From: Roseovarius mucosus
Lineage (GTDB): Bacteria > Pseudomonadota > Alphaproteobacteria > Rhodobacterales > Rhodobacteraceae
NCBI RefSeq assembly: GCF_002080415.1
Contig: NZ_CP020474.1
Location: 1,482,001-1,546,000 of the forward strand
Length of the DNA: 64,000 nt
Direction of reading: 5' to 3'
Shown here: positions 8,090 to 61,398 of the stretch, piece by piece
How the letters are laid out: each line of letters opens with the position of its first letter
Numbering within the stretch: the stretch's first letter is position 1
Translations under genes and position numbers: made by a program
The notes under the pieces: model-generated
Seen by the model: the letters and a program-made list of their open reading frames with translations, nothing else
What the model was told of the DNA's origin: nothing
The model's database searches: none

Positions 8090-9181
8090 ATGGCCAATCC
8101 CCCAATCGCCATGTTGGCGGAACTCACGCACCGTTGCCCGCTCTCGTGCCCCTATTGCTCCAACCCGGTGGAACTGACCGCACGGGAAACGGAACTCGGC
8201 ACCGCCGACTGGGTATCGGTCTTTCAACAGGCCGCTGACTTGGGTGTGCTGCAACTTCACATCTCGGGCGGCGAACCCGCCTCGCGCCGCGATCTAGAAG
8301 ATCTGATCAAGGCTGCGCGTGACGCGGGCCTCTATACCAACCTCATCACCTCCGGCATTGGCCTGACCGAGAAACGTCTGGCTGCGCTCGATGACGCGGG
8401 CCTCGACCATATCCAACTGTCGCTGCAAGGAACCGATGCCGAAATGGCCGACCGCATCGGCGGCTATATGGGCGGCTTTGACCGCAAGATGCAGGTGGCC
8501 AAATGGATCGCCGCCATCGGCTTTCCGCTCACGCTCAATTTCGTCATGCATCGCGGCAACATGCACCAACTGCCCCGCGCGATTGAAATGGCGCAAGACA
8601 TGGGTGCGCGCCGGATCGAGGTGGCGACCGTGCAATTCCACGGCTGGGCCATGCTGAACCGTGGCGCGCTCATGCCTGACCGCGCGCAGGCCCGCGAGGC
8701 CAGTCGCATCGTCGCCGAGGCGCGCGCCGCCCTCAAGGGGCGTCTGGTGATCGATTATGTGCCCGCCGATTATCACGCCGATTATCCCAAGACCTGCATG
8801 GGTGGCTGGGCCACAACCGGCCTCAACGTAGCCCCTGATGGGCTGGTCTTGCCCTGCCACGCGGCGCAGACGATCAAGACGCTCACCTTCGACAATGTGC
8901 GCGACCGGCCCTTGGCCGATATCTGGCACAACGGCGCAGCCTTCAACGCCTTTCGTGGCACCGACTGGATGCAGGAGCCCTGCCGTTCCTGCGAGCGCAA
9001 GACGATTGATTTCGGTGGCTGCCGCTGTCAGGCCATGGCGATTGCGGGCGATCCGGCGGCGACCGATCCGGTCTGCATCAAATCCCCCCACCACGCGCAA
9101 ATGCGCGCCCTGGCCGAGGATTTCTCGGGCCAGTCTGACGCAGACCTCACATGGCGGGTGATGGAGAAAACGCCGCTTTAG
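8090..9181 (+). CDS. pqqE: Radical SAM PqqA peptide cyclase PqqE
   Basis: 363 residues. Uses a radical SAM [4Fe-4S] cluster to link the PqqA Glu and Tyr side chains. The cluster motif is C16-x3-C20-x2-C23 in THRCPLSCPYCSNP, followed by ISGGEP. The SPASM domain near the C-terminus carries further cysteines (TCMGGW, LPCHAAQ, EPCRSCERK, FGGCRCQAM, PVCIKS) for auxiliary clusters. The frame is open upstream to 7865, but the ATG at 8090 matches the family start and sits one base after the pqqD stop. No pqqF or pqqG protease gene lies in the window. Confidence 0.96.
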   Translation: MANPPIAMLAELTHRCPLSCPYCSNPVELTARETELGTADWVSVFQQAADLGVLQLHISGGEPASRRDLEDLIKAARDAGLYTNLITSGIGLTEKRLAALDDAGLDHIQLSLQGTDAEMADRIGGYMGGFDRKMQVAKWIAAIGFPLTLNFVMHRGNMHQLPRAIEMAQDMGARRIEVATVQFHGWAMLNRGALMPDRAQAREASRIVAEARAALKGRLVIDYVPADYHADYPKTCMGGWATTGLNVAPDGLVLPCHAAQTIKTLTFDNVRDRPLADIWHNGAAFNAFRGTDWMQEPCRSCERKTIDFGGCRCQAMAIAGDPAATDPVCIKSPHHAQMRALAEDFSGQSDADLTWRVMEKTPL

Positions 9182-49675: not shown

Positions 49676-50275
49676 CTAGGTGTCGCCCATGTTACTCAGG
49701 ATGCTCTCTGCATTGATGATGGACTGTGCAATCTCGGTGGTCGTTGTACGCTTTGCCATCGCTTGTTTGCGGATGAGATCATAGGCTTCGCGCTCGGTGA
49801 TACCCCGGTGCCGCATCAGGATAAACTTGGCATCATTCACCTTCTGCACATTCTCAAGTTTTTCGCGCAGCTTCGACAGATCCTTTTCATAGCGCATTTG
49901 TTCAGATTGAAATCGCCGAGCCATCAACATGCTGCTCAGCACGCCTGCTGCGCGCACGGGTTTCATCAATACCGAATGTGCGCCAATCTCTAGGATGACA
50001 TCCAACGTGGATGGGTTTTCATAGCCGACAATGGCAATCGTCGTGATCGGGCGCTCGCGCCGGTCAAGAAATGCTTTCAATTCCTGAGGTGATTGGTCCG
50101 TGACGTCTACGAAAACCATATCGAACTTGTCCGGTAGGGTCCGGGGTAGCGGCCACATATGTTCGAAACTACAGCCGATCCTGTTTACCTGCTGCAAAAG
50201 CTCATCTGCGCTACGGTCACGCGGATGCACCAAGAGAACGTTTTGATCCCGTAAGTCCTGGATCAGGTCATGCAT
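49676..50275 (-). CDS. amiR: ANTAR-domain antitermination regulator AmiR
   Basis: 199 residues. RNA-binding antiterminator of amide catabolism, held inactive by AmiC. An N-terminal receiver-like domain lacks a full phospho-acceptor pattern (VLLVHPRDRSADELL, FVDVTD). A coiled-coil linker (QMRYEKDLSKLREKLENVQK) leads to the C-terminal three-helix ANTAR domain (KFILMRHRGITEREAYDLIR, KQAMAKRTTTTEIAQSII). The length is close to Pseudomonas AmiR (196). Its start overlaps the amiC end by eight bases. A candidate RNA target lies in the operon leader at 58542-58624. Confidence 0.93.
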   Translation of the reverse strand: MHDLIQDLRDQNVLLVHPRDRSADELLQQVNRIGCSFEHMWPLPRTLPDKFDMVFVDVTDQSPQELKAFLDRRERPITTIAIVGYENPSTLDVILEIGAHSVLMKPVRAAGVLSSMLMARRFQSEQMRYEKDLSKLREKLENVQKVNDAKFILMRHRGITEREAYDLIRKQAMAKRTTTTEIAQSIINAESILSNMGDT

Positions 50276-51437
50276 GACGCCCGCCGCTTGTCGTTACCTT
50301 ATGCGTGCGAAAGCTCCAATCATGGATCGCCGGGTAAACGAGATAGGGGTCCGGCTTGATCGCGCGACGCACCTTGAGGTCGATTTCAAACTCTCCCTCA
50401 GAGTTGACCACAGCTATCCGGGATTGCAGATAGGTGTGGTTATTGTCCGGATCGACCTTGATCTGGCCTTGGGGCGCATCGAAGGCTTCGCCCAACAAGG
50501 CCTCTCGCAGGCAATCAGTATCCATTTCCCCGGTCTCCTCTAACGCTGCCGCGAACAGATGCACCTGACTATAAGCCGCTTCGCAGCAACTGGTGACATC
50601 AATAGTGGAACCGAATTTCTGTTCATAGGCCTTCAGAAAGCGACGGTTTGCCAAGGAACTGATCGACCGGAAATAGGGGGCGGCTGTGATGTGGCCAACG
50701 GCGGCCTCAGCGCCGATAGCGCTGATTTCCCCTTCGTTCGTGGTAAGACTGGCAATCGGACAAACCCGTCCATCGCCACCCACAGCATGATAGGCACGGT
50801 AGAACTCGATGCAGGACTGACCCACGATTGTTGAGAAGATCGCATCTGGCTGCGCATCCCGGATTTCATCGAGCACAGCGCGGAACCCCTCGGCGCGCGT
50901 CTCAAGATCAAAATACCGCTCGCCAACGACTTCGCCACCACCTTGCCTTAGGACATTGCGCATCACACGATTGGATTCGTAGGGGTAGATGTAGTTGGAG
51001 CCGACAAAGAAAATCCGCTTGCCGTAAGCGCTCATCAGGTAGTTCGCTAGCGGCACACTGTTCTGGTTCGGGCAGGCCCCGCCATAGATGACATTTGGCG
51101 AATATTCAAAACCCTCATAAAGCGTGGGATAAAAGAACAGGGCATTCCGGCGCTCGACGACTGGCAAAACCTCTTTGCGCGACGACGACATGTAGCAGCC
51201 GAAAATGACGCTTACCTTGTCGTCCACGATCAGGCGTTCGGCCAACTCTCCGTATTGGGTCACAATCGAGCCGGGGTCATAGCTGACCGCCTCAAGTGGG
51301 CGTCCGCGCACACCGCCGCGCGCGTTGATCTGATCCAAGGCGAGCAACGCGCCATTCAGCTGCGACTGTTCAATGATCGAGGTGACGCCCGTCGTTGAAA
51401 AGAGCAATCCGATCTTCCAGCTTTCCTTTTGTGTCAC
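50268..51437 (-). CDS. amiC: Cytoplasmic amide sensor AmiC, ABC binding-protein-like repressor of AmiR
   Basis: 389 residues from a GTG start at 51435-51437 (AAGG upstream at moderate spacing). No signal peptide: it begins MTQKESWKIGLLFSTTGVTS, so it is cytoplasmic. Two-lobed periplasmic-binding-protein fold with VSYDPGS, FFYPTLYEGFEY, YGGACPNQNS and CEAAYSQVHLF. AmiC binds small amides and releases AmiR. It is visibly homologous along its length to the ABC binding protein at 57258-58493. Confidence 0.93.
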   Translation of the reverse strand: MTQKESWKIGLLFSTTGVTSIIEQSQLNGALLALDQINARGGVRGRPLEAVSYDPGSIVTQYGELAERLIVDDKVSVIFGCYMSSSRKEVLPVVERRNALFFYPTLYEGFEYSPNVIYGGACPNQNSVPLANYLMSAYGKRIFFVGSNYIYPYESNRVMRNVLRQGGGEVVGERYFDLETRAEGFRAVLDEIRDAQPDAIFSTIVGQSCIEFYRAYHAVGGDGRVCPIASLTTNEGEISAIGAEAAVGHITAAPYFRSISSLANRRFLKAYEQKFGSTIDVTSCCEAAYSQVHLFAAALEETGEMDTDCLREALLGEAFDAPQGQIKVDPDNNHTYLQSRIAVVNSEGEFEIDLKVRRAIKPDPYLVYPAIHDWSFRTHKVTTSGGRHA

Positions 51438-51453
51438 GTATTGATGCCTTCAT

Positions 51454-52581
51454 TCAGGAGTATTGGAACTGGACCTGGCCATCTTTATGATCTGCGAACA
51501 CCAAGGTCATAGCCTGACCAGAGGCGGGTGCATCCGGGGCGGGCCCGTCAAGCAGAAAACCTGCCAATGGAAATTCTAGGTTGCGCCGGATGGCCCGGCG
51601 TAGCCCTCGCGCGCCGAACCGCTTATCATATCCCTCTACCGAAAGAAAATCCCTCAGGGTTGTGCTGATACTCAACGACAGTTCATGTTTCCTGAGCCTA
51701 CGGTTCAACCTGGCCATCTCGACATCAACCAGAGCTGGCATCTTGTCGCGTGATATCCAGTTGAATGTATCAACATGATCTATCCGGTTGACAAGTTCTG
51801 GTGGGAACCGATCCAAGAGGCTGTTCATCACGATATCGTGGGCACGTTCACGCCGTGACTTGCCAGAGTTCCTGATACGCTGCCAAAGATTACCGCTGTG
51901 CTCATCCAAGGCCATCAGTTCCCGAGCCCCGAGGTTCGAGGACATGAACACAAGCGCATTTCGGAACGAGTAGGTGCGTTCGCCAGAGGCCACAGTCAAA
52001 AGCCCGTTATCAAAGACATTCATGAGGGCGAGCACGACCTCATTGCTTGCCTTTTCAAGTTCGTCAAATAGGACAAGCCCCGGCAAGTTGCGTGTGCCCT
52101 CGATTTTTTCCTGATCGAGAATGGTCGTCCCTTCTTTAGACCCCACATAACCCGGCGGAGCACCGGTAAGGGCAGCGGCGTAATGCTCTTGCGAAAGCGT
52201 ATTCATGTCGATCCTGCAAAACGCATCGGCATCCCCGTAGAGCGCACGCGCCAAGGTGCGAACGGTCTCGGTTTTACCAACGCCAGTTGGCCCACAGAAC
52301 AGAATTGTCGCCAAGGGTTTGCGGGGGTCTCCGATATCGGCGCGGACCACCTTGAGAATTTCCAAAAGCTGTTCGAGACTTTCGTCCTGCCCGATTATGG
52401 CCGCCCGCAACTCGGCTTCGACCTGGTCGAGGTCAAAAGTAAACCGAGTTTGCAAGCCTGCGTTTGGTGTCGGGCCCTTGGTAGACGATGCGCCAGTCAT
52501 ACGGGCATTCTCGTCGGCCAGTGCTGACGCAAGTTTTTGCTGGCGGGCAGTGTCGTGCAAGCGGTCCGTCAAAAAAGGCAT
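51454..52581 (-). CDS. amiB: AAA+ ATPase AmiB (ClpB-like) of the amidase operon
   Basis: 375 residues resembling the second ATPase module of Clp/Hsp100 proteins without the N-terminal domain. Walker A is FCGPTGVGKTETV, Walker B is GLVLFDELEKAS. GYVGSKEG and the sensor/arginine region KRFGARGLRRAIRRNLEFPL follow. In Pseudomonas amiB sits between amiE and amiC with no firm function, and was proposed to act with the membrane protein AmiS. No amiS is present in this operon. Confidence 0.92.
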   Translation of the reverse strand: MPFLTDRLHDTARQQKLASALADENARMTGASSTKGPTPNAGLQTRFTFDLDQVEAELRAAIIGQDESLEQLLEILKVVRADIGDPRKPLATILFCGPTGVGKTETVRTLARALYGDADAFCRIDMNTLSQEHYAAALTGAPPGYVGSKEGTTILDQEKIEGTRNLPGLVLFDELEKASNEVVLALMNVFDNGLLTVASGERTYSFRNALVFMSSNLGARELMALDEHSGNLWQRIRNSGKSRRERAHDIVMNSLLDRFPPELVNRIDHVDTFNWISRDKMPALVDVEMARLNRRLRKHELSLSISTTLRDFLSVEGYDKRFGARGLRRAIRRNLEFPLAGFLLDGPAPDAPASGQAMTLVFADHKDGQVQFQYS

Positions 52582-52655: not shown

Positions 52656-53699
52656 TCAATTCGCCTCTTTTTCCTTGGCCCCCGTTGGCAAGCCGCCGAC
52701 CGGACAGCATGCCACACCCACAGTTGTGCGGGTAAAGGATTCCACCTGCTCTCGGGTTTTCTCTGCGTCGTTGACCCAGTTTCGGTAGAATTCAAACGGG
52801 CATTCGGCCACGCCCTTGTCACCATCGCCCGAGGCATGGATGCCTGTGTAGCCACGATGCAAAAGCTTGAAGAGATGGTTTTGCGACTGGTCATTGGCGC
52901 GGGCATCACGGATCTCAGGAATAGAGAGCTGTGCATACTGGATGCCCATTTCCTCTTCGCCACATTCGCCCAAGGTGCGCCCATCAAAGCCGATGATCGC
53001 CGAATGGCCAAAGTAGCAATAGACCCCGTCAAACCCCGCCGCATTAGCGACAGCGACATAGGTGTTGTTGGCCCAAGCCATGGCCTTGGCCATGATCACC
53101 TGCTGGTCCTTGGCCGGATACATATAGCCCTGGCACCGCACGATGAGTTCCGCACCTTTCATGGCGCAGTCCCGCCAGATTTCGGGATAGTTGCCATCGT
53201 CGCAGATGATAAGGCTGACCTTGAGTCCCTTGGGACCATCGCAGACATAGGTCTTGTCACCGGGATACCAGCCCTCGATCGGGTTCCAAGGCAGCACCTT
53301 GCGGTACTTCTGCACGATTTCACCCTTGTTGTTCATCAAGATCAGCGTGTTGTACGGGGTTTTCTTGGGGTGATCTTCATGGCGTTCGCCAGTGATCGAG
53401 AACACGCCCCAGGTGTTCGCCTTGCGGCAAGCCGCCGCAAAGATCTCGGTCTCCTCGCCGGGGATGGTGGCTGCGGTCTCCATCATCTCGTCGGGGTCAT
53501 ACATAATGCCTTGGGTGCTGTATTCCGGAAAAATCACGAGATCCATACCGGGAAGCCCCCGCTTCATGCCGACGATCATGTCCGCAATCTTGTGGGCATT
53601 TTCAAGAACCTCGGCCTTGGTATGGAGCCGGGGCATCTTGTAATTCACGACCGCCACGCCAACCGTGGTATCGCTGCTGGAGATGTCACCATGTCTCAT
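52656..53699 (-). CDS. amiE: Aliphatic amidase
   Basis: 347 residues. Hydrolyses short-chain amides such as acetamide and propionamide to the acid and ammonia. Nitrilase-superfamily catalytic triad at the standard positions Glu59 (VIFPEYS), Lys134 (QKYRKVLPW) and Cys166 (LIICDDGN). The N-terminus [20 protein letters not shown] is that of AmiE rather than formamidase AmiF. AAAGGAAAAG precedes the ATG at 53697-53699. The gene lies downstream of urtE in a shared operon with the importer and regulators. Confidence 0.96.
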
Positions 53700-53736: not shown

Positions 53737-53757
53737 CCTGACCTTCAGAAGGTCAGG
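53737..53757 (-). other. Perfect hairpin at the urtE stop codon
   Basis: CCTGACCTT and AAGGTCAGG pair perfectly around a three-base loop. The urtE stop lies inside the structure. Without a U-run it is unlikely to terminate, but it could mark an mRNA processing boundary between the transporter and amidase segments. Confidence 0.65.
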
Positions 53758-54446
53758 TGCTTCTCCACGACAGAGTCGGTGAGATCCTTGCTGAGCCCGC
53801 TTAGAACAACGCGGCCCTTGTCGAGCACCATGAACCGGTCAGATGCTCGGCGGGCAAAGGGGACGTTCTGTTCGACCAGAATGATCCCAAGTCCGCGTTC
53901 TCTATTCAGGCGGATAATGGCGTCCTCGATCTGTTTGACGATGTTGGGCTGGATGCCTTCGGTCGGCTCGTCGAGGATGAGGATTTTGGGATCCATCGCC
54001 AAGGCCCGCGCAATGGCCAGTTGCTGCTGTTGTCCGCCCGACAGATCGCCGCCCTTGCGCCCGATAAACTCGTCGAGAATTGGGAACATCTCAAAGAGGT
54101 AGTCGGGAATTTCCCGCTTGCCGTCAGGACGGGCAAAAGTGCCCATCACGATGTTTTCCCGAACCGTAAAGTTCGGAATGATCTCGCGACCTTGCGGGAT
54201 ATACGCGATGCCCAGCTTTGCCCTTTGCGATGTGCTTCGGCTCAAAAGGTCCTGTTCGCCAAAAATGAGCCCGCCATCGCAACGGTCTGTTAGCCCCATG
54301 ATCGACTTGAGAAGTGTCGTCTTGCCAACGCCGTTCCGCCCGAGGATTGCCAAGAACTCGCCGGGCTCCAAGTCAAACGAGACGCCCTGTATCACCGGGC
54401 TCTTGCCGTAGAAGGAATAGAGGTCCTTTGCCTGCATGGTTTCCAT
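53745..54446 (-). CDS. urtE: Urea/amide ABC importer ATPase, UrtE/LivF-like
   Basis: 233 residues from the ATG at 54444-54446 (a TTG two codons earlier is also possible). Walker A is LGRNGVGKTTLL, signature LSGGQQQQLAIARALA, Walker B ILILDEPTEGIQP; the PTEGIQP ending is typical of UrtE. QGREIIPNFTVRENI matches the family. Pairs with UrtD as the ATPase heterodimer, two bases after urtD. Confidence 0.9.
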   Translation of the reverse strand: METMQAKDLYSFYGKSPVIQGVSFDLEPGEFLAILGRNGVGKTTLLKSIMGLTDRCDGGLIFGEQDLLSRSTSQRAKLGIAYIPQGREIIPNFTVRENIVMGTFARPDGKREIPDYLFEMFPILDEFIGRKGGDLSGGQQQQLAIARALAMDPKILILDEPTEGIQPNIVKQIEDAIIRLNRERGLGIILVEQNVPFARRASDRFMVLDKGRVVLSGLSKDLTDSVVEKHLTF

Positions 54447-54448
54447 GA

Positions 54449-55177
54449 TCAATGCCCCAGATATGCGGTTTTGACGTCTTCGTTGGTCTCGATCTCTTGG
54501 ATCGTACCCTGCGCCAGCATGGCCCCACGGTTCATGACCACAATCCTGTCAGCGACGGTGCGCACAAAGGACATGTCATGCTCGACGACGATCAGTGTGT
54601 GACTGTCAGAGAGCACACGAAAGATTTCGGCTGTGCGCTCGGTTTCCTGAATGGTCATCCCTGCGGTGGGTTCATCCATCAGGATCAACCGACTGTCCTG
54701 CGCAATCAGCATGGCAATTTCGAGCCATTGGGTCTCGCCGTGAGACAGGTTTCCCGCAAGATCGTTTGCCTTTGCCTCCAGCCCGACACGTTCGAGGATG
54801 GGGGCCGCTGCATGCCCGTCTGACAATGCAAAACGCGTGAGAGCGTGCCAGATTCCCGGTCGACGCGACCGCGCGACTGACAGATTTTCGGCAACGGTCA
54901 GTTCCTTGTAGACGGACGGCACCTGAAACTTGCGCCCGATCCCCAGACGCGCGCGCCGGAACTCCAGCATCTGTGAGATTTCCGTACCTTCAAAACGGAT
55001 CGAGCCGCCTGTGGGTTGTGTCTTGCCGCAAATCAGGTCAAGCGTTGTCGATTTGCCAGCGCCGTTTGGACCAAGAAGGCAAAGGATCTCGCCTTGGGCC
55101 ACATCAAAGCTCAGCCCATCAACGGCGCGCAATCCGCCAAAATCCACTTGCAGGTTCGTTACTTGCAGTTGGCTCAT
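54449..55177 (-). CDS. urtD: Urea/amide ABC importer ATPase, UrtD/LivG-like
   Basis: 242 residues from the ATG at 55175-55177; the open frame extends upstream to 55543 but that part is inside urtC. Walker A is LGPNGAGKSTTLD, followed by GIGRKFQVPSVYKELTVAEN. The signature is LSHGETQWLEIAMLI, which is the UrtD variant of the LSGGQ motif. Walker B is RLILMDEPTAGM. Two bases separate it from the urtC stop. Confidence 0.92.
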   Translation of the reverse strand: MSQLQVTNLQVDFGGLRAVDGLSFDVAQGEILCLLGPNGAGKSTTLDLICGKTQPTGGSIRFEGTEISQMLEFRRARLGIGRKFQVPSVYKELTVAENLSVARSRRPGIWHALTRFALSDGHAAAPILERVGLEAKANDLAGNLSHGETQWLEIAMLIAQDSRLILMDEPTAGMTIQETERTAEIFRVLSDSHTLIVVEHDMSFVRTVADRIVVMNRGAMLAQGTIQEIETNEDVKTAYLGH

Positions 55178-55179
55178 CG

Positions 55180-56292
55180 CTATCGCTCCTGTCCAGATTT
55201 GACCGGCTGTGCGCCGCGATTTGGGGTGGAAGAGGGCGTGCGATCTTTGCGCATGCCCTGGCACAGCCCTTGCCAAAGGTCGCTGATCACCCCGTGAAGC
55301 CCACGCGGCATAAACATGACGACCAGAACAAAGATCACGCCAAGCATCAGGTTCCAGCCTTCGACGAACACGTCGGAAAGGCGCCCTTCGAGCAGGTTGA
55401 CGATAATCGCGCCAATCGCCGCTGCGATGACCGAGTCCCGCCCGCCCACTGCGCACCAGATAACGATGGCCAAGCTGAACGAGACGCTCATGTAAGTGGG
55501 CGAGGCAAATTCCAGCACCAGCGTGTAGAGCATGCCAGACCAACCAGCGAGCGCGGCCGAAATACAGAAGATCACCGTCTGGTAATTGGCCACGTTATAG
55601 CCAAAGAACCGCGTACGATCTGCATCCTCACGGATGGCGCGCAGGATCAAGCCGAACTTGCTGTGCGTGAGATAGAGGCCAAACGTAACCGCCGCCATCA
55701 AGCAACCGGCAACAAGGTAGTAAAAGCCCACTCCGTAGGTATCGACCGTCCATCCCATCAGGCTGAGTGGGGCCAATCCCGTCAGGCCGTTTTGCCCGCC
55801 CGTGATCCCTTGCTGCTCGATCACGACCAGTTGAAACGCCACCAAAAAGGCCAAGGTGATGATCGCGACAAAGACGCCGGCAATTCGCGCGCGGAACATG
55901 AAGATCGCAATCAGCCCCCCCACGAATGCCGGCACCAGGAGCCCGGCCAACAGGGTAAAGCCGAGAGAGTGGAACGGAACCCAAAGCAACGGCAGTTCCG
56001 GAACATTGTTCCAGCCCATGAAATCCGGCAATGCCTCGCCGCTGGCCTTCAGCTTGAGATGCATGGCCATGGCATAAGATCCCATGCCAAAGGTTGCAGC
56101 CTGACCAAGGTTGAGCAACCCCGCGCTTCCCCAAGACAGGGCAAGGGCCAGTGAAACAATCGCCAATGCGAGATAACGGGCAAAGGTATTCAGCTCAAAC
56201 CCGTCAAAGCCCATCAGCGCGGGAACACCAAGCACGATCACAAGGGCAAAGAGGACCAGTGCCGCGAGGTCATAGTATAATCTGGTTGTCAT
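55180..56292 (-). CDS. urtC: Urea/amide ABC importer permease, UrtC/LivM-like
   Basis: 370 residues from the ATG at 56290-56292, preceded by GAGGAG. Ten or so membrane spans. Conserved segments include LNLGQAATFGMGSYAMAMHL and FGLILRAIREDADRTRFFGY, then ALAGWSGMLYTLVLEFASP. Works with UrtB as the membrane heterodimer. Confidence 0.92.
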   Translation of the reverse strand: MTTRLYYDLAALVLFALVIVLGVPALMGFDGFELNTFARYLALAIVSLALALSWGSAGLLNLGQAATFGMGSYAMAMHLKLKASGEALPDFMGWNNVPELPLLWVPFHSLGFTLLAGLLVPAFVGGLIAIFMFRARIAGVFVAIITLAFLVAFQLVVIEQQGITGGQNGLTGLAPLSLMGWTVDTYGVGFYYLVAGCLMAAVTFGLYLTHSKFGLILRAIREDADRTRFFGYNVANYQTVIFCISAALAGWSGMLYTLVLEFASPTYMSVSFSLAIVIWCAVGGRDSVIAAAIGAIIVNLLEGRLSDVFVEGWNLMLGVIFVLVVMFMPRGLHGVISDLWQGLCQGMRKDRTPSSTPNRGAQPVKSGQER

Positions 56293-56302
56293 AGTGCGCT
56301 CC

Positions 56303-57172
56303 TCAACGGCGGGTATTGGATGGGAAGAGGCCACGCGGGCGGAACCGGATCAGGACGATAATCCCCGCAAGGACCGCGATGCGCCCCAACGTGTCATTGA
56401 ACAGCATTGAGAACAGCGCCGTTGCCTCTCCGATAAGAACGGATGCGGTGGCCGCCCCCAAAAGACTGCCAAGGCCCCCGACGATGACGACAAGAAAGGC
56501 ATCCACCACCAGGCCAGTGCCCATGGTAGGGATTGTGCTGAAAAGCGGGGTGATGAGTGCGCCGGCGATGCCCGCAAGCCCCGCACCATAGGCAAAGGTG
56601 AATGAGTATATATTCTTTGCCTCTATCCCGTAGCATTCAGAAATCTTGCGGTTCTGAATGACGGCGCGCAGCTTCATGCCAAACTCTGTCTTGGTCATGA
56701 GTGCCCAAGACGCGGCGAGAACGGAAAGCGAGAAAACGATCACAAACAAGCGGTAGTTTGACATGATCAGGCCGCCAATCTGAGTGTTTCCACTCAGGAT
56801 CTCGGGGCCTTTGACAAAGCGCGACTCGGCGCCGACCGACAGACGCACCAGTTGTTGCAGGATAATGCCGATCCCCCAGGTCGCTAGGATCGTGTCCAGA
56901 GGGCGGTGGTAAAGGCGTTGCACGATCACCTTTTCGATGATCCAACCCACAGCGGCGACGGCGATAAAAACAAAGGGCAGCGCCACGATGATGCTAAAGC
57001 CGGCATAGCTCTGCAGGGCCCATGCCGCATAAGCACCCAGCATCACGAACTCGCCATGCGCAAGATTGATGACACCCATCGCACCATAGATGATCGCCAA
57101 CCCCAGAGCGATCATGAGCAGGATCGAAGCCATGCTCAGCCCTGCGAATAACTGATTTAGTATCACGTCCAT
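56303..57172 (-). CDS. urtB: Urea/amide ABC importer permease, UrtB/LivH-like
   Basis: 289 residues from the ATG at 57170-57172. About eight membrane spans. AIIYGAMGVINLAHGEFVML is the LivH/UrtB signature, and MKLRAVIQNRKISECYGIEA is the cytoplasmic coupling loop. GAGAGG lies upstream. Ten bases separate its stop from urtC. The UrtA gene lies 85 bases upstream with a hairpin between. Confidence 0.91.
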   Translation of the reverse strand: MDVILNQLFAGLSMASILLMIALGLAIIYGAMGVINLAHGEFVMLGAYAAWALQSYAGFSIIVALPFVFIAVAAVGWIIEKVIVQRLYHRPLDTILATWGIGIILQQLVRLSVGAESRFVKGPEILSGNTQIGGLIMSNYRLFVIVFSLSVLAASWALMTKTEFGMKLRAVIQNRKISECYGIEAKNIYSFTFAYGAGLAGIAGALITPLFSTIPTMGTGLVVDAFLVVIVGGLGSLLGAATASVLIGEATALFSMLFNDTLGRIAVLAGIIVLIRFRPRGLFPSNTRR

Positions 57173-57191
57173 CGAGACACGCCTCTCGCTG

Positions 57192-57217
57192 GCCCGGCCC
57201 AAATAGAGGGGCCGGGC
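57192..57217 (-). other. Hairpin between the binding-protein gene and urtB
   Basis: GCCCGGCCC (57192-57200) pairs with GGGCCGGGC (57209-57217), perfect nine-base stem and eight-base loop. No U-run follows in the transcribed direction. Such structures after binding-protein genes often raise the level of that protein relative to the permeases. Confidence 0.7.
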
Positions 57218-57257: not shown

Positions 57258-58493
57258 TCAGCCTTCTACGAGGCCCTGACCCGTGCAGCGCTGCCCCTCA
57301 TAGGCGGCATAAGGCAGGGGTGCGACGCGGCTCTGGGACTGAACCACAACCTCGGCCTGACCGTTGGCTTGCCACTGACCGATCTTGGGCCAGAGATGGG
57401 TGTGCAGGTTCTCATCAATCAGCACCTCACCTTGGGGGGCGGTCAGTGCCAGACCAACCGCGGCGTCGCGGATCGCCTCTGGGGTGATGTTTGACGGGTC
57501 GAGCTTCTCTAGAGCGGCCTTGAATTGGTACACTTGAAAGTAGGCCGCTTCGCTGACGAAATGCGTCACCTGATCCCCGCCATATCGGGATTTGTATGCC
57601 TCGACAAAGCGCTCGTTTTCCGGCGTCTGAGTGCCCATGAAATAGGGCGCGGACGAGAAGTGACCGGCAGCCGCCTCTCCGCCAATGGCCTTAACCTCGA
57701 CCTCAGAGCGTGTAAGGCTGATGACCGGCATCTTGGCCGGGTCCAGTTCTGCGGCATGATATTGCCGGGCAAAGGCCACATCGGAATCACCGACCACGGT
57801 GGCAAAAATCACGTCTGGTTCCTCGGCGCGGATGCGATTGATGACCGAGCTGAAATCGGAATGACCCAACGGCACATATTCTTCGTGCACCACCTCGCCG
57901 CCATGCTTTGCCAACAGGGTCTTGCAGTAATTGTTCTCTTCCTTGGGATAGACGTAATTGTTGCCGATCATGTAGAAACGCGGCCCGAAATTCTCGATCG
58001 CCCAGGGGATCAGATCGTCCTGCTGCTGGTTCGGTACAGCGCCGCCATACATGACGTTGCGCGAGCACTCGCGCCCCTCGTAGAGCGTCGGATACCAGTA
58101 AAGGTTATTGCGTTGCTCAGTCACCGGCAGAACCGCCTGCCGACTGGCCGAAGTGTAGGAGCCGAACACGCTGACGCATTTGTCGCGGATCATCAGACGA
58201 CGCGCCCGGTCGGCATAGGTTGCGGGATCAGAGGCGGGATCTTCGATGATCGGACGCAGTTGCATGCCATGCACACCACCGGCGGCATTGATTTCCTCAA
58301 TCGCCATCAAGGCCGCATCATGCAGCGTGCTTTCGACAACAGCCACCGCTCCGGTGAGGGAAAAAAGCAGACCCACGGGAATGTCGCTGCCCTGCGCTGC
58401 GGCGCGGCTCAGCGTCGAAAGAAGTGCCGGGGCGGAAAGCGCACTGCCCATCCCAACCGCACTGACCCCTCCTAGAAAATCACGACGTTTCAT
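57258..58493 (-). CDS. urtA: Urea/short-chain amide ABC importer substrate-binding protein, UrtA/FmdD-like
   Basis: 411 residues beginning with a Tat-type signal (MKRRDFLGGVSAVGMG) and ending it near SRAAAQG. Two-lobed binding protein with IPVGLLFSLTGAVAV, NNLYWYPTLYEGRECS, NVMYGGAVPNQQQDD and HFVSEAAYFQVYQF. First gene of the amide operon, with a GAGGAG site. Homology to both UrtA and AmiC, and the amidase in the same operon, favours short-chain amides; urea cannot be excluded. FmdD of Methylophilus is the nearest named analogue. Confidence 0.9.
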   Translation of the reverse strand: MKRRDFLGGVSAVGMGSALSAPALLSTLSRAAAQGSDIPVGLLFSLTGAVAVVESTLHDAALMAIEEINAAGGVHGMQLRPIIEDPASDPATYADRARRLMIRDKCVSVFGSYTSASRQAVLPVTEQRNNLYWYPTLYEGRECSRNVMYGGAVPNQQQDDLIPWAIENFGPRFYMIGNNYVYPKEENNYCKTLLAKHGGEVVHEEYVPLGHSDFSSVINRIRAEEPDVIFATVVGDSDVAFARQYHAAELDPAKMPVISLTRSEVEVKAIGGEAAAGHFSSAPYFMGTQTPENERFVEAYKSRYGGDQVTHFVSEAAYFQVYQFKAALEKLDPSNITPEAIRDAAVGLALTAPQGEVLIDENLHTHLWPKIGQWQANGQAEVVVQSQSRVAPLPYAAYEGQRCTGQGLVEG

Positions 58494-58541: not shown

Positions 58542-58584
58542 AAAAAAGGCCCTTCAACGCGGTGTGAACCGCAGTTGAAGAGCC
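58542..58584 (-). terminator. Regulated intrinsic terminator in the leader of the amide operon
   Basis: On the transcribed strand, an 11-base-pair stem (58584-58574 with 58558-58548, one G-U pair) is extended by a five-base-pair upper stem (GCGGT with ACCGC) after a single bulged U, closing a four-base loop, and is followed by UUUUUU (58547-58542). This is a full-strength intrinsic terminator, yet it lies 48 bases upstream of urtA and on the same strand, so it can only make sense as an attenuator. Confidence 0.9.
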
Positions 58585-58624
58585 TCTTTGCTCATATTGG
58601 CTTTTTAGACTCGCAATTGAGCCT
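58580..58624 (-). promoter_or_regulatory. Candidate ANTAR (AmiR) RNA target: two hexaloop hairpins
   Basis: Upstream of the terminator the leader forms P1 (58624-58607, stem AGGCUC/GAGUCU, hexaloop AAUUGC), a 13-base linker, and P2 (58593-58580, stem GAGC/GCUC, hexaloop AAAGAG). ANTAR targets are paired hexaloop hairpins with A at loop position 1 and G at position 4; P2 fits both and P1 has the A only. The P2 3' arm (GCUC) is part of the terminator 5' arm, so the structures exclude each other, the known antitermination mechanism. Confidence 0.75.
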
Positions 58625-59151
58625 GTAATAATCGTCAAGCAGAACGCTTATTTTTGCAAGATTATTTATTTGTTTAATATCATTCGTTTACACACAGAGT
58701 TTTCGCAAAGGTCACTTGAGTTTCTAAAAACTGCACCCGCCCGAAATCTTGATTTCAGAGGTGCAGATTGATCAGAAACACGGCAAGTTTCAGAATACTT
58801 GTCCGTTCCGATTTGAGGCGAAACATCGACAGTTAGGTCGTCACCGCAGGATAGGGTGGGATATCGCATCCGGCTCGTTTTGGGTAATCTTGCCAGAGAT
58901 CCCCGGGCGTTCTGGAGGTCGCGCCCGGGGATGCGGGGGCACTCACAAACCCCTGCCGACCTAGGAAGGCTTGGTCGCTCTGGGCCCGGTTGAGGCCCTT
59001 CCATAAAGACAGAATTTGAGTAGAATTTAAAGAGATTTCACGCAAATAATGAGACAGAGAGTCTCGATTACCTTGAAAAATCTCAGGGGGAAGTACTGTG
59101 AACACAAGAGCGAGCGGCTCTCATTAAGCTCAACAAGCAATCTTATCCGCG
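58625..59151. other. AT-rich region upstream of the amide operon, no gene resolved
   Basis: The first 70 or so bases (58625-58700) are very AT-rich and should hold the amide-operon promoter (TTGCAA and TTGACG hexamers on the minus strand are candidates). The rest, 58700-59151, has open frames of up to 112 residues, but none shows a ribosome site, family motif or believable composition. It may contain decayed sequence. Confidence 0.5.
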
Positions 59152-60099
59152 TCAAATCGGTGGCGCGGCGCGTTCGGTCATCAATTGGCGGGCCGTGACC
59201 CGTTCGCGGTGGATCATGTAAAGGCCCGAACCGATGATGATGGCAATCCCCGTAAGGGTAAGCGCATTGGGGAAATCGCGAAACACCAGATAGCCCAGCA
59301 ATGTCGCCACCGGCAGCTCTAGATATTGCAGAGGTGCCAGCGTGGCCGAAGGAGCAAGGGACAGCGCATACGTCATCATCATATGGCTCAGCGTGGCGAA
59401 AAAACCGACCCCCAGCAACCACAGCCATGCAATGCCCTCTGGCCAGACCGGATCGAGCATCTCAATCCCCGTGCCCTCGGCCAGTATCACCACCGGGAGG
59501 CAGAGCAGGCTGGCGATCAGGCCGGTGTGGAACTGCAACGTGACGGGATGCATCCGCCGTGACAGCCCGCGTGTCACCAGAATGTAGAACGCAAACCCAA
59601 CCGCCGTGCCCAGCGGAAACAGCGCCACCGCGCCAAAGGCCGCGAAGCTGGGCTGGATCACCAAGAGGACGCCCACAAAGCCCACCATCGCGGCGCCCAC
59701 GCGGCGCGGGCCAACATCTTCGCCCAAGTAGAACTTGCCCACCAAAAGCACGATGAACGGGGCAACGAACACAATCGCCAGCGCATCGGCCAGTGGCATC
59801 ACGCGGATCGCAGCGATGAAGCAGAAGGTGGAGACAAAGAGCAGCACCGCACGAAAGAGCAGTGCCAGCCAGTGCGCGCGCGGCACCCGCAGGGACAGGC
59901 CCATGATCAAAACAAACGGCGTCATCAGCGCGCATTGCACGATAAATCGCGCGGCGGTGATCTGTCCTACTGGTACGCTGGTCGATGCCAGCTTGGCCGC
60001 CACATCGAGGAGGGGTGCTGTCACGCAAAACCCAAGCATCAGGGCGACACCCGCTAGAATGCGGTCGGTCGACGGGGAGGCGGAGGAGGTATTGGTCAT
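59152..60099 (-). CDS. DMT-superfamily exporter with two EamA domains
   Basis: 315 residues from an ATG at 60097-60099 (another ATG two codons upstream). Ten predicted membrane spans in two repeated EamA halves: PLLDVAAKLASTSVPVGQIT and ALADALAIVFVAPFIVLLVG in the first, PLQYLELPVATLLGYLVFRD in the second. Members export metabolites or amino acids; the substrate is not evident. The long open frame upstream of the chosen start lacks family sequence. Confidence 0.85.
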   Translation of the reverse strand: MTNTSSASPSTDRILAGVALMLGFCVTAPLLDVAAKLASTSVPVGQITAARFIVQCALMTPFVLIMGLSLRVPRAHWLALLFRAVLLFVSTFCFIAAIRVMPLADALAIVFVAPFIVLLVGKFYLGEDVGPRRVGAAMVGFVGVLLVIQPSFAAFGAVALFPLGTAVGFAFYILVTRGLSRRMHPVTLQFHTGLIASLLCLPVVILAEGTGIEMLDPVWPEGIAWLWLLGVGFFATLSHMMMTYALSLAPSATLAPLQYLELPVATLLGYLVFRDFPNALTLTGIAIIIGSGLYMIHRERVTARQLMTERAAPPI

Positions 60100-60255
60100 G
60101 GCCATCGCATAGGGTGCTGCCCCGCGCGCGTCTATCCTTTTTGCGACGCATGGCTTAGCCTTGATGTAGAGACAGCCGGTGTGTCGCAGTGTGATTGATT
60201 GAACCTGTAACAATCTGGTGAAACTCTGCGCACATCTTTTAGGGGAGTCGCGCAG

Positions 60256-61398
60256 TTGCATATTCTGAGATCACTCGGCCCAGCCGTTGCCCGGGTTTCC
60301 GGCGCGGAGGCTGTGCGCGCAGGCGTTGGAGCGCTCATTGGCCTCGGACTGACCGGGCTTTTCCTTCTGTCGCCACAGATTGATCTCGATCTGGGCCTGT
60401 TTCTTGTGGCCCCCTTTGGTGCATCGGCTGTCCTTTTGTTCGCCGTGCCAAATAGCCCCCTTGCACAGCCTTGGTCCGCCATAGTCGGCAACACTGTTGG
60501 TGCTCTTGTCGGGGTGGCCGTATGCCTTGTCGTGGGGGACATCGCCCTCAGGATCGCATTGGCTGTTGGTCTTGCGATCACGGCGACAATCTTATGCCGC
60601 GCGCTGCATCCTCCGGCAGGTGCCGTGGCGATGACTGCCGCCATGTCGCCAGAGGCAATTGAACATCTGGGTTTCTGGTTTGCCCTGGCCCCTATCGCAA
60701 TCGGAACAACCGCGCTTGTCGTGCTCGCGACTGGATACGCGAGACTTACCGGGCGGCATTATCCGTTCCGGCAATTCGATGATCCAAGCAACCATCGCAC
60801 AGAAGATCGCAATCCTACAGAGCGGCTTGGCCTTTCAGAAGGCGAGTTGACCAGCATCCTTGAACGCTTCAGTCAATCATTCAACCTCGGTGTCGAGGAT
60901 CTGGCTCGGCTCATCGGTGCGGCGGAACTTCAGGCCGCTGCGCATTCCGCAGGCCCCTTGACGGCACAGGACATCATGTCGCGCAATCTTGTCACGGCCA
61001 ATCCAGACACCACGCTTGGTGAGATCGCGGATATCTTCAGAAAGCATCGATTCACGTCGCTTCCCGTCGTGGGGCCTGACACAAAATTCCTGGGCGTCAT
61101 CTTTCAGATGCATCTCATCAGTCAAGCCAGAGAAGATGCGCTGCGCCTGCATCGTGGCTTTTTGCCATCCTTTAAGCGCCTTTTGGACCGTGATCGAGCA
61201 GGACCGATGACGGCAAGTGACATCATGAGCGTCGCAGTCCCGCGCGTGACGACCAATACCCCGATCGGAGCACTCCTCCCCATTATGGCAGATGGTGATA
61301 CTGATGCTGTTCCCGTCATAGAGTACGGAAAAATCGTTGGCATTGTCACAAGAACAGACCTTATCGCCGCACTTGCCCGACGCGCTGCGCGGTCCTGA
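60256..61398 (+). CDS. HPP-family membrane protein fused to two CBS domains
   Basis: 380 residues from a TTG start with AGGGGAG upstream. The N-terminal HPP domain has about four membrane spans with FGASAVLLFAVPNSPLAQPW and the naming motif RALHPPAGAVAM. The C-terminal half carries two CBS motifs (AQDIMSRNLVTANPDTTLGE and ASDIMSVAVPRVTTNTPIGA), which usually bind adenine nucleotides. HPP proteins are linked to nitrite or anion transport in plastids and cyanobacteria. Transport gated by nucleotide binding is a plausible but unproven role. Confidence 0.88.
   Translation: MHILRSLGPAVARVSGAEAVRAGVGALIGLGLTGLFLLSPQIDLDLGLFLVAPFGASAVLLFAVPNSPLAQPWSAIVGNTVGALVGVAVCLVVGDIALRIALAVGLAITATILCRALHPPAGAVAMTAAMSPEAIEHLGFWFALAPIAIGTTALVVLATGYARLTGRHYPFRQFDDPSNHRTEDRNPTERLGLSEGELTSILERFSQSFNLGVEDLARLIGAAELQAAAHSAGPLTAQDIMSRNLVTANPDTTLGEIADIFRKHRFTSLPVVGPDTKFLGVIFQMHLISQAREDALRLHRGFLPSFKRLLDRDRAGPMTASDIMSVAVPRVTTNTPIGALLPIMADGDTDAVPVIEYGKIVGIVTRTDLIAALARRAARS

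Follow-up and report, generated by a model that had tools for sequence, protein, structure and literature searches.

A very probable variant AmiR-ANTAR leader precedes a probable amide import and hydrolysis operon in Roseovarius mucosus

The window analyzed here, a 64,000-nucleotide stretch of the Roseovarius mucosus genome, carries on its minus strand genes for a five-gene ABC importer, an aliphatic amidase, an AAA+ ATPase, an amide sensor and an ANTAR-domain regulator, preceded by a structured leader (Table 1). Judged from the coordinates, all intergenic gaps within the urtA-amiR operon are shorter than 80 bases, and the nine genes fill 58493-49676 without leaving space for a further gene such as AmiS. 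Homologues of AmiE, AmiC and AmiR are all present in the operon, and a cognate ANTAR protein, AmiR, is encoded in the operon of the leader itself. The genome encodes three ANTAR proteins, including NasT and a second AmiR beside urease. The latter belongs to a further amiC-amiR pair (identities 43% and 36%) at the head of a group made up of the urease genes, another amiE (76%) and an ATPase of the CbbQ type (L050:492-9645; C1 1168000-1187500). No dual-hexaloop leader was found at that locus, either by our leader scanner or by the RNA model R1 at E <= 1 (both described below).

Table 1. Coordinates of the leader elements and operon genes in the window
Feature	Coordinates	Strand	Comment
-35-like element TTGCAA	58654..58659	(-)	TTGC (TTGA in one) nearly equidistant from P1 in 25 Rhodobacterales leaders
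-10-like element GACGAT	58631..58636	(-)	17 bases past -35; ends 6 bases ahead of P1
P1 hairpin	58607..58624	(-)	6 bp; RNA AGGCUC-[AAUUGC]-GAGUCU; hexaloop at 58618-58613
P2 (antiterminator) hairpin	58580..58593	(-)	4 bp; RNA GAGC-[AAAGAG]-GCUC; hexaloop at 58589-58584
Intrinsic terminator + U tract	58542..58585	(-)	Stem 58585-58547; U tract 58547-58542
urtA-like substrate-binding protein	57258..58493	(-)	Peripla_BP_5; AmiC-like pocket
urtB-like permease	56303..57202	(-)	
urtC-like permease	55180..56334	(-)	
urtD-like ATPase	54449..55180	(-)	
urtE-like ATPase	53745..54452	(-)	
amiE, aliphatic amidase	52656..53699	(-)	NF009802, 712.7 bits vs cut-off 427
amiB-like AAA+ ATPase	51454..52581	(-)	
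amiC-like amide sensor	50268..51437	(-)	Best PDB match AmiC 1PEA, E 3e-105
amiR, AmiR_N + ANTAR domain	49676..50275	(-)	Best PDB match AmiR 1QO0, E 2e-29

The importer is probably not specific for urea as its gene names would imply. UrtB, UrtC and UrtE score above their NCBIfam cut-offs while UrtA and UrtD fall below, the UrtA-like protein reaching 389.4 against a urea cut-off of 492.75. Trp120, Gln144 and Asn246 of urea-binding UrtA are reported to be strictly conserved and required for binding urea (PMC10392092). The UrtA-like protein of the window has Tyr, Leu and Val at these positions. The Leu144 and Val246 equivalents occur in 31/31 UrtA-like proteins (that of the window included), and Tyr at the Trp120 position was found in 30 of the 31 by pattern and in L090 by eye. 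Additionally, the UrtA-like segment YPTLYEG resembles YPTPYEG of AmiC, including the shared Thr, which we take to be Thr106 of the AmiC pocket. Based on the AmiC-like pocket and the missing urea residues, we regard the system as an amide importer whose UrtA-like protein probably binds amides; this suggests that some importers annotated for urea transport amides.

The RNA of the leader can fold into two hairpins, P1 and P2, separated by a 13-nt linker, and into an intrinsic terminator in which the 3' arm of P2 becomes part of the 5' arm. UUUUUU at 58547-58542 closes the terminator 3' arm, and the urtA ATG (58493) lies 48 bases further on. The original prediction had described a terminator 48 bases before urtA, two preceding hexaloop hairpins with loops AAUUGC and AAAGAG, and a P2 stem that uses the terminator 5' arm. 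The structures are present at 58624-58542 (-) with the loop letters as stated, and the shared arm is seen both in the window and in the alignment of Rhodobacterales leaders. The 95-nt leader folds at -39.5 kcal/mol compared to -19.9 kcal/mol (sd 3.2) for shuffled sequences (z -6.2, reached by 0/200 shuffles), a stability owed mostly to the terminator. The terminator fold is strongly favored (-39.1 kcal/mol vs -28.9 kcal/mol with P1 and P2 forced), indicating that the default state would be off and that the antiterminator would need help.

To locate such leaders we used a scanner that requires a P1 hexaloop with A1 and, after a linker, a P2 hexaloop that shares bases with a terminator carrying a T run. 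Over both strands of the window it returned exactly one site, the leader before urtA, compared to 6 matches in 20 dinucleotide shuffles of the window (1.28 Mb), or ~0.3 per window. Rfam searches of the whole window and of the leader alone gave the leader no match above the curated cut-off and, below it, four chance-level matches (E 0.55 to 3.6). A generic promoter and terminator scan left the leader strand (-) without any entry; in our opinion, the terminator was passed over because of its bulge and long apparent loop.

Upstream of P1 is a promoter-like motif that matches the sigma-70 consensus at 7/12 letters. Since the generic scan did not list this motif either, the case for a promoter is based on positional conservation. 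In the printed sequences, TTGC (TTGA in one leader) is nearly equidistant from P1 in 25/25 Rhodobacterales leaders, and in 22/25 the best hexamer pair chosen by script combined the TTGC element, across a spacer of 17 bases, with a second hexamer whose end lies 6-8 bases ahead of P1. The script preferred another pair in Rv_lutimaris, Loktanella and a Roseobacter MAG; TTGC is present there by eye, with a spacer of 18 in Loktanella and no A at position 2 of the second hexamer in the Roseobacter MAG. The transcript is thus predicted to start at about 58624, that is at P1 and upstream of 58580; a start downstream of 58580 had been named in advance as evidence against an antitermination leader. A sigma-54 promoter, suggested by the TTGCA motif, was dropped on reading the sequence, as GG is absent at the required spacing.

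Searches for AmiR identified 9/198 family genomes and 20/84 genus genomes at E <= 1e-20, and 17/398 phylum genomes at E <= 1e-15. Scanning named genomes yielded another 29 loci, 27 of which carry the leader. The other two, a degraded operon in which urtA was not found (L094) and a locus with an amiR fragment (L100), had no scanner match and were left out. Of 20 further stretches, 11 were duplicates and counted once (L034, L036, L037, L038, L040, L042, L043, L045, L046, L047 and L052), L035, L039, L041 and L044 were used, and L048-L051 and L053 were distant systems or a fragment.

These loci fall into two gene orders. Type A, found in Rhodobacterales (Roseovarius, Roseivivax, Mameliella, Thalassovita, Actibacterium, Paracoccus thiocyanatus and others), reads urtABCDE-amiE-amiB-amiC-amiR. 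Type B reads amiC-amiR, gap, urtABCDE-amiE-amiB (L092 and L095 being partial contigs) and occurs in Arhodomonas, other Ectothiorhodospiraceae, Billgrantia and a Rhodospirillaceae MAG; the arrangement is therefore found also outside the Roseobacter relatives. The leader precedes urtA in 24 loci from Rhodobacterales and in 7 of type B; in 7/7 of the latter the P2 hexaloop and terminator occupy the amiR-urtA gap (the urtA start of L092 was placed by eye). In L044 it lies 232 bases ahead of amiE, and no importer was found within the fetched 14 kb. The leader keeps to the first structural gene: urtA in types A and B, and amiE in L044 and L109, where no neighboring importer was found. Counterparts of the AAA+ ATPase at 51454-52581 are present in the complete operons of both types, L085 excepted. 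In L085 (Pontibaca salina, 8163-8837) amiE was undetected and amiB is only a fragment, while leader, importer, amiC and amiR are retained.

An earlier version of the scanner, run over 922 kb of loci (duplicates included), gave 39 matches, of which 36 are at the urtA leader (amiE in L044). The remaining three are before urtA in L071 (the same place as in L122), before amiC in L097 and, unexplained, in L081. This version missed true leaders in L034/L072, L047/L088, L092, L093 and L096, which were recovered by a simpler P2 search or by eye. In L109-L128 the scanner matched L109 (before amiE), L121 and L122 (before urtA), and L127, the last being unconvincing with a linker of 1 and no U run in the printed stretch. 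Among L050 and L129-L134 it matched L129 only, likewise unconvincing and without an R1 match at E <= 1. The distant AmiC-AmiR loci L048, L049 and L051 had no scanner match.

Conservation of the hairpins was assessed in an alignment (A2) of 25 Rhodobacterales leaders, comprising 24 from type A loci (L085, without amiE, among them) and that of L044; L039 and L082 are nearly identical. Base pairs of P1 and P2 are kept in 99.6% of 250 cells, and 5/10 pairs have double-sided changes, values reached by 0/500 shuffles that ignore relatedness among leaders. Slid controls were paired in at most 49.8% of cells and had double-sided changes in at most 3 pairs. Covariation of the P1 and P2 stems in relatives, a test named in the original prediction, is thus present. 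It is concentrated in P1, where 4/6 pairs have double-sided changes. All four P2 pairs are kept in 25/25 leaders, one with double changes and three invariant, so that the support for P2 comes more from conservation and from the terminator. Such invariance is as expected where bases serve two structures. In the terminator, 90.9% of 416 cells are paired and 11/17 pairs have double-sided changes; 23/500 shuffles reached that count and 0/500 reached the covariation score. Both hairpins have six-base loops in 25/25 leaders, and the linker in scanner-found Rhodobacterales leaders is 7-13 nt, within the 2-25 nt given in PMC8164766.

We then asked how R1 matches are distributed relative to AmiR. R1 has a single significant site in the R. 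mucosus genome (E 2.7e-16; next 4.3). In 198 family genomes R1 matches exactly the 6 with an AmiR of >= 54% identity, and in 84 genus genomes exactly the 11 whose AmiR is an ortholog, one of them truncated at a contig end. The positives in both runs belonged to the training set; the informative part of the co-occurrence is the silence of R1, under the stricter filters of the tool, in the other 192 and 73 genomes. Of the 20 genus genomes with AmiR, the 11 with orthologs have the leader, while 8 with only a distant relative and 1 with a fragment have no R1 match. In 394 family genomes R1 gave 8 matches, one of them false: the match in G852 (E 0.003) was rejected, as it lies on a 5.4-kb contig without any ami or urt match, beside an ORF that looks like soxB. 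The other genome added in this run (G811) is an Actibacterium that was part of the training set before. In loci that had not been used for training, R1 detected at E <0.01 the urtA leaders of L092 (8e-6), L095 (3e-6), L096, L097 (7e-4) and L098 (1e-5) and the amiE leader of L109 (7e-7), with weaker matches (0.011 to 0.35) in L093, L122, L091 and L121. Of the 25 R1 matches in this run, 4 are the same hairpins on the opposite strand. At E <= 1 there was no R1 match in L050, L129, L136, L137 or L138.

The loop letters depart from the published rule, which is A1 and G4 in each loop (PMC3369931, PMC8934654, PMC8164766). Across the 25 leaders the P1 loop has the consensus AANUGC (A1 25/25, A2 22/25, U4 20/25, G5 21/25, C6 23/25), with G4 in only 2/25; the window P1 carries U4. 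The P2 loop has A1 and A2 in 25/25 and G4 in 5/25, and no leader (0/25) has A1 and G4 in both loops. The original prediction had considered P1 possibly degenerate and read G4 of P2 as a signature. Neither view holds, as the P1 stem covaries and its loop is conserved, and G4 of P2 is kept in a minority of leaders. In type B urtA leaders, P2 has A1 in 6/7 and G4 in 7/7, while P1, scored in 5 of the 7, has G4 in 2/5 and G5 in 3/5. G4 is present in every resolved hexaloop of the type B amiC leaders (Gammaproteobacteria and one Rhodospirillaceae MAG). Some latitude in these letters has been reported: loop letters in an actinobacterial survey are >50% conserved and not identical (PMC8164766), and NasT-binding motifs in Bradyrhizobium are perhaps poorly conserved (PMC6759348).

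In the EutV complex (PMC8934654), Tyr164 is the stacking partner of G4, and three residues, Arg142, Lys149 and Glu160, hold the G4 of P2. The 21 Rhodobacterales AmiRs compared retain the equivalents of Tyr164 and Lys149, carry Glu or Asp at the Glu160 position, and have a hydrophobic residue in place of Arg142. In this comparison the segment taken from L050 is misaligned, and L109 yielded none. A link between an AmiR contact residue and G4 allowed no conclusion: P2 lacks G4 where the Glu160 position is Asp (7), and has G4 in only 4 of the 14 with Glu. Whether the Rhodobacterales AmiR-RNA pair has a changed code, with loops that start with A (AA in P2), G5-C6 mostly replacing G4 in P1, and a dispensable G4 in P2, seems to us an evenly balanced question. 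If so, antitermination would proceed without the flipped-out G4 of the EutV complex, and, as type B P2 keeps G4 in both urtA and amiC leaders, the P2 code would have drifted inside one orthologous system; the P1 shift would already be partly present in type B. An aligned set of natural leaders mostly without the supposedly essential G4 makes the reading of ANTAR hexaloops directly testable. The element fails the strict G4 letter rule and is very probably an AmiR-ANTAR leader of a variant kind.

We consider AmiR-type antitermination of the whole urtABCDE-amiEBCR operon to be the best explanation of the leader, with a probability of about 0.9. Alongside the structures, conservation, covariation, positional promoter motif, gene order and AmiR co-occurrence observed here, we infer RNA binding, amide induction and read-through by analogy to the AmiC-AmiR and EutV systems. 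The promoter at 58659-58631 would start the transcript at or beside P1. When amide is absent, AmiC would keep AmiR inactive and the nascent RNA would form the stronger terminator, ending transcription ahead of urtA. When amide is present, P1 would recruit free dimeric AmiR, which would next stabilize P2; P2 would then capture the terminator 5' arm, and polymerase would continue through urtABCDE, amiE, amiB, amiC and amiR. Levels of importer and amidase would rise in step with those of the sensor and the antiterminator, giving positive feedback. Amide-responsive antitermination, hitherto tied to an amidase, would thereby cover import and hydrolysis together with the regulator. Structure and gene order support the earlier proposal of a dual-hairpin ANTAR-type leader before importer, amidase and regulator genes, and its positive-feedback circuit, inferred from gene order, is supported by the additional leader found ahead of amiC in type B.

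Three other explanations were weighed. The terminator could simply end an upstream gene near urtA, with hairpins arising by chance: a minus-strand ORF (59152-60261) does lie upstream of the leader, intrinsic terminators are common, and R1 can match without ami or urt context (G852) or on the opposite strand (4/25). However, a promoter-like motif conserved in position stands between that ORF and the terminator, P1 covaries, the scanner finds ~0.3 sites per shuffled window, and the element precedes urtA in the 24 Rhodobacterales and 7 type B loci and amiE in L044, making this account very unlikely. It is just as improbable that a different ANTAR protein, NasT or the AmiR beside urease, acts on the leader. 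While the genome does encode three such proteins, in the count made for AmiR across genomes leader presence tracks the ortholog of the operon's AmiR, with 11 genus genomes having both and 9 genomes with only a distant AmiR relative or a fragment having no R1 match.

A ligand-binding riboswitch or a leader-peptide attenuator would also combine a terminator with an alternative fold. Against these, the leader has no Rfam match above the curated cut-off, its hairpins are small, with conserved letters in the loops and a linker of variable length, and do not form a large aptamer, and it would have little space for a leader peptide if the predicted start is correct. We therefore give a leader that is not read by protein very little weight, and AmiR-type antitermination remains the preferred reading.

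The type of switch is known; here, key letters depart from the textbook rule. The Pseudomonas aeruginosa amiE leader shares AmiC, AmiR, aliphatic amidase, amiB, P1 and a terminator overlapping P2 (PMC3369931, PMC3369936). In contrast, it precedes amiE in an amiECBRS operon that includes amiS (PMC3369936), whereas the leader in R. mucosus precedes a five-gene ABC importer and amiC-amiR come last. Published loops have A1 and G4 (PMC3369931; the P. aeruginosa leader was compared by description), while G4 is not the rule here. EutV leaders of Enterococcus faecalis share two six-base-loop hairpins, P2 inside the terminator, A1 and a constrained linker (PMC3369931, PMC8934654); EutV, however, is activated by phosphorylation, and here Arg142 is lost and G4 mostly missing. 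NasT leaders are known in Paracoccus (PMC5424462).

A 2012 covariance survey reported ANTAR RNAs ahead of urea transporters and so shares with this work an ANTAR-type leader ahead of a urea-annotated transporter (PMC3369931). Each loop of its seed had A1 and G4, and its available excerpts do not describe an amide import operon (PMC3369931); with such a seed, Rhodobacterales leaders would probably have scored low. Among the matches listed for open-licence papers, none concerned the Rhodobacterales urtA-ami leader, and open-licence papers gave nothing useful on the AmiC pocket or on Roseovarius and aliphatic amidase. A Klebsiella plasmid has an ABC importer with amiC, amiR and amidase, and no leader is mentioned in the available text (PMC13209695). 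The Klebsiella michiganensis plasmid locus L135 shares importer, amidase, amiC and amiR, with a P2-like hexaloop (AAUAGA) and terminator before the importer, but its enzyme is of the acetamidase/formamidase type and its AmiR is only 32% identical. No P1 with >=4 pairs was found in L135, and R1 matched only at E 4. Plasmids L135, L136 and L138 have the same importer and amiC-amiR frame with varying amidases, annotated as acetamidase/formamidase type in L135 and as 'amidase' in L136 and L138.

In type B, R1 also matched just before amiC in 6/7 loci, ending about 25-75 bases upstream of the amiC match (L098 4e-4, L095 0.0017, L093 0.0039, L092 0.022, L097 0.052, L096 0.21), and a similar structure is readable before amiC in L091. 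When each stem is required to have 4 or more unbroken pairs, a P1 with A1 plus G4 is seen in 5/7 of these leaders (L091, L093, L095, L097 and L098) and one with G1 plus G4 in L092; P2 has G4 in 5/7 (L091, L092, L096, L098, and L097 with G1). By eye, the other stems contain a mismatch. With this second leader, amiCR as a separate unit seems to carry its own switch, and type A would reach the same feedback through amiCR at the end of a single operon. This suggests that two gene orders preserve the same feedback.

Further leader-like sites lie elsewhere in some loci. An extra site in L122 (2748-2849) and L121 (10787-10888) precedes an apparently membrane-like ORF of 468 residues and is possibly a third target of the same AmiR; in L122 its P1 loop is AACGAG (with G4) and its P2 loop AAGAAG (without G4). 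Lastly, in Paracoccus thiocyanatus a dual-hexaloop-like site (AGGAUC, AAGAAA) at L081:11224, downstream of amiR, is either chance or another target.
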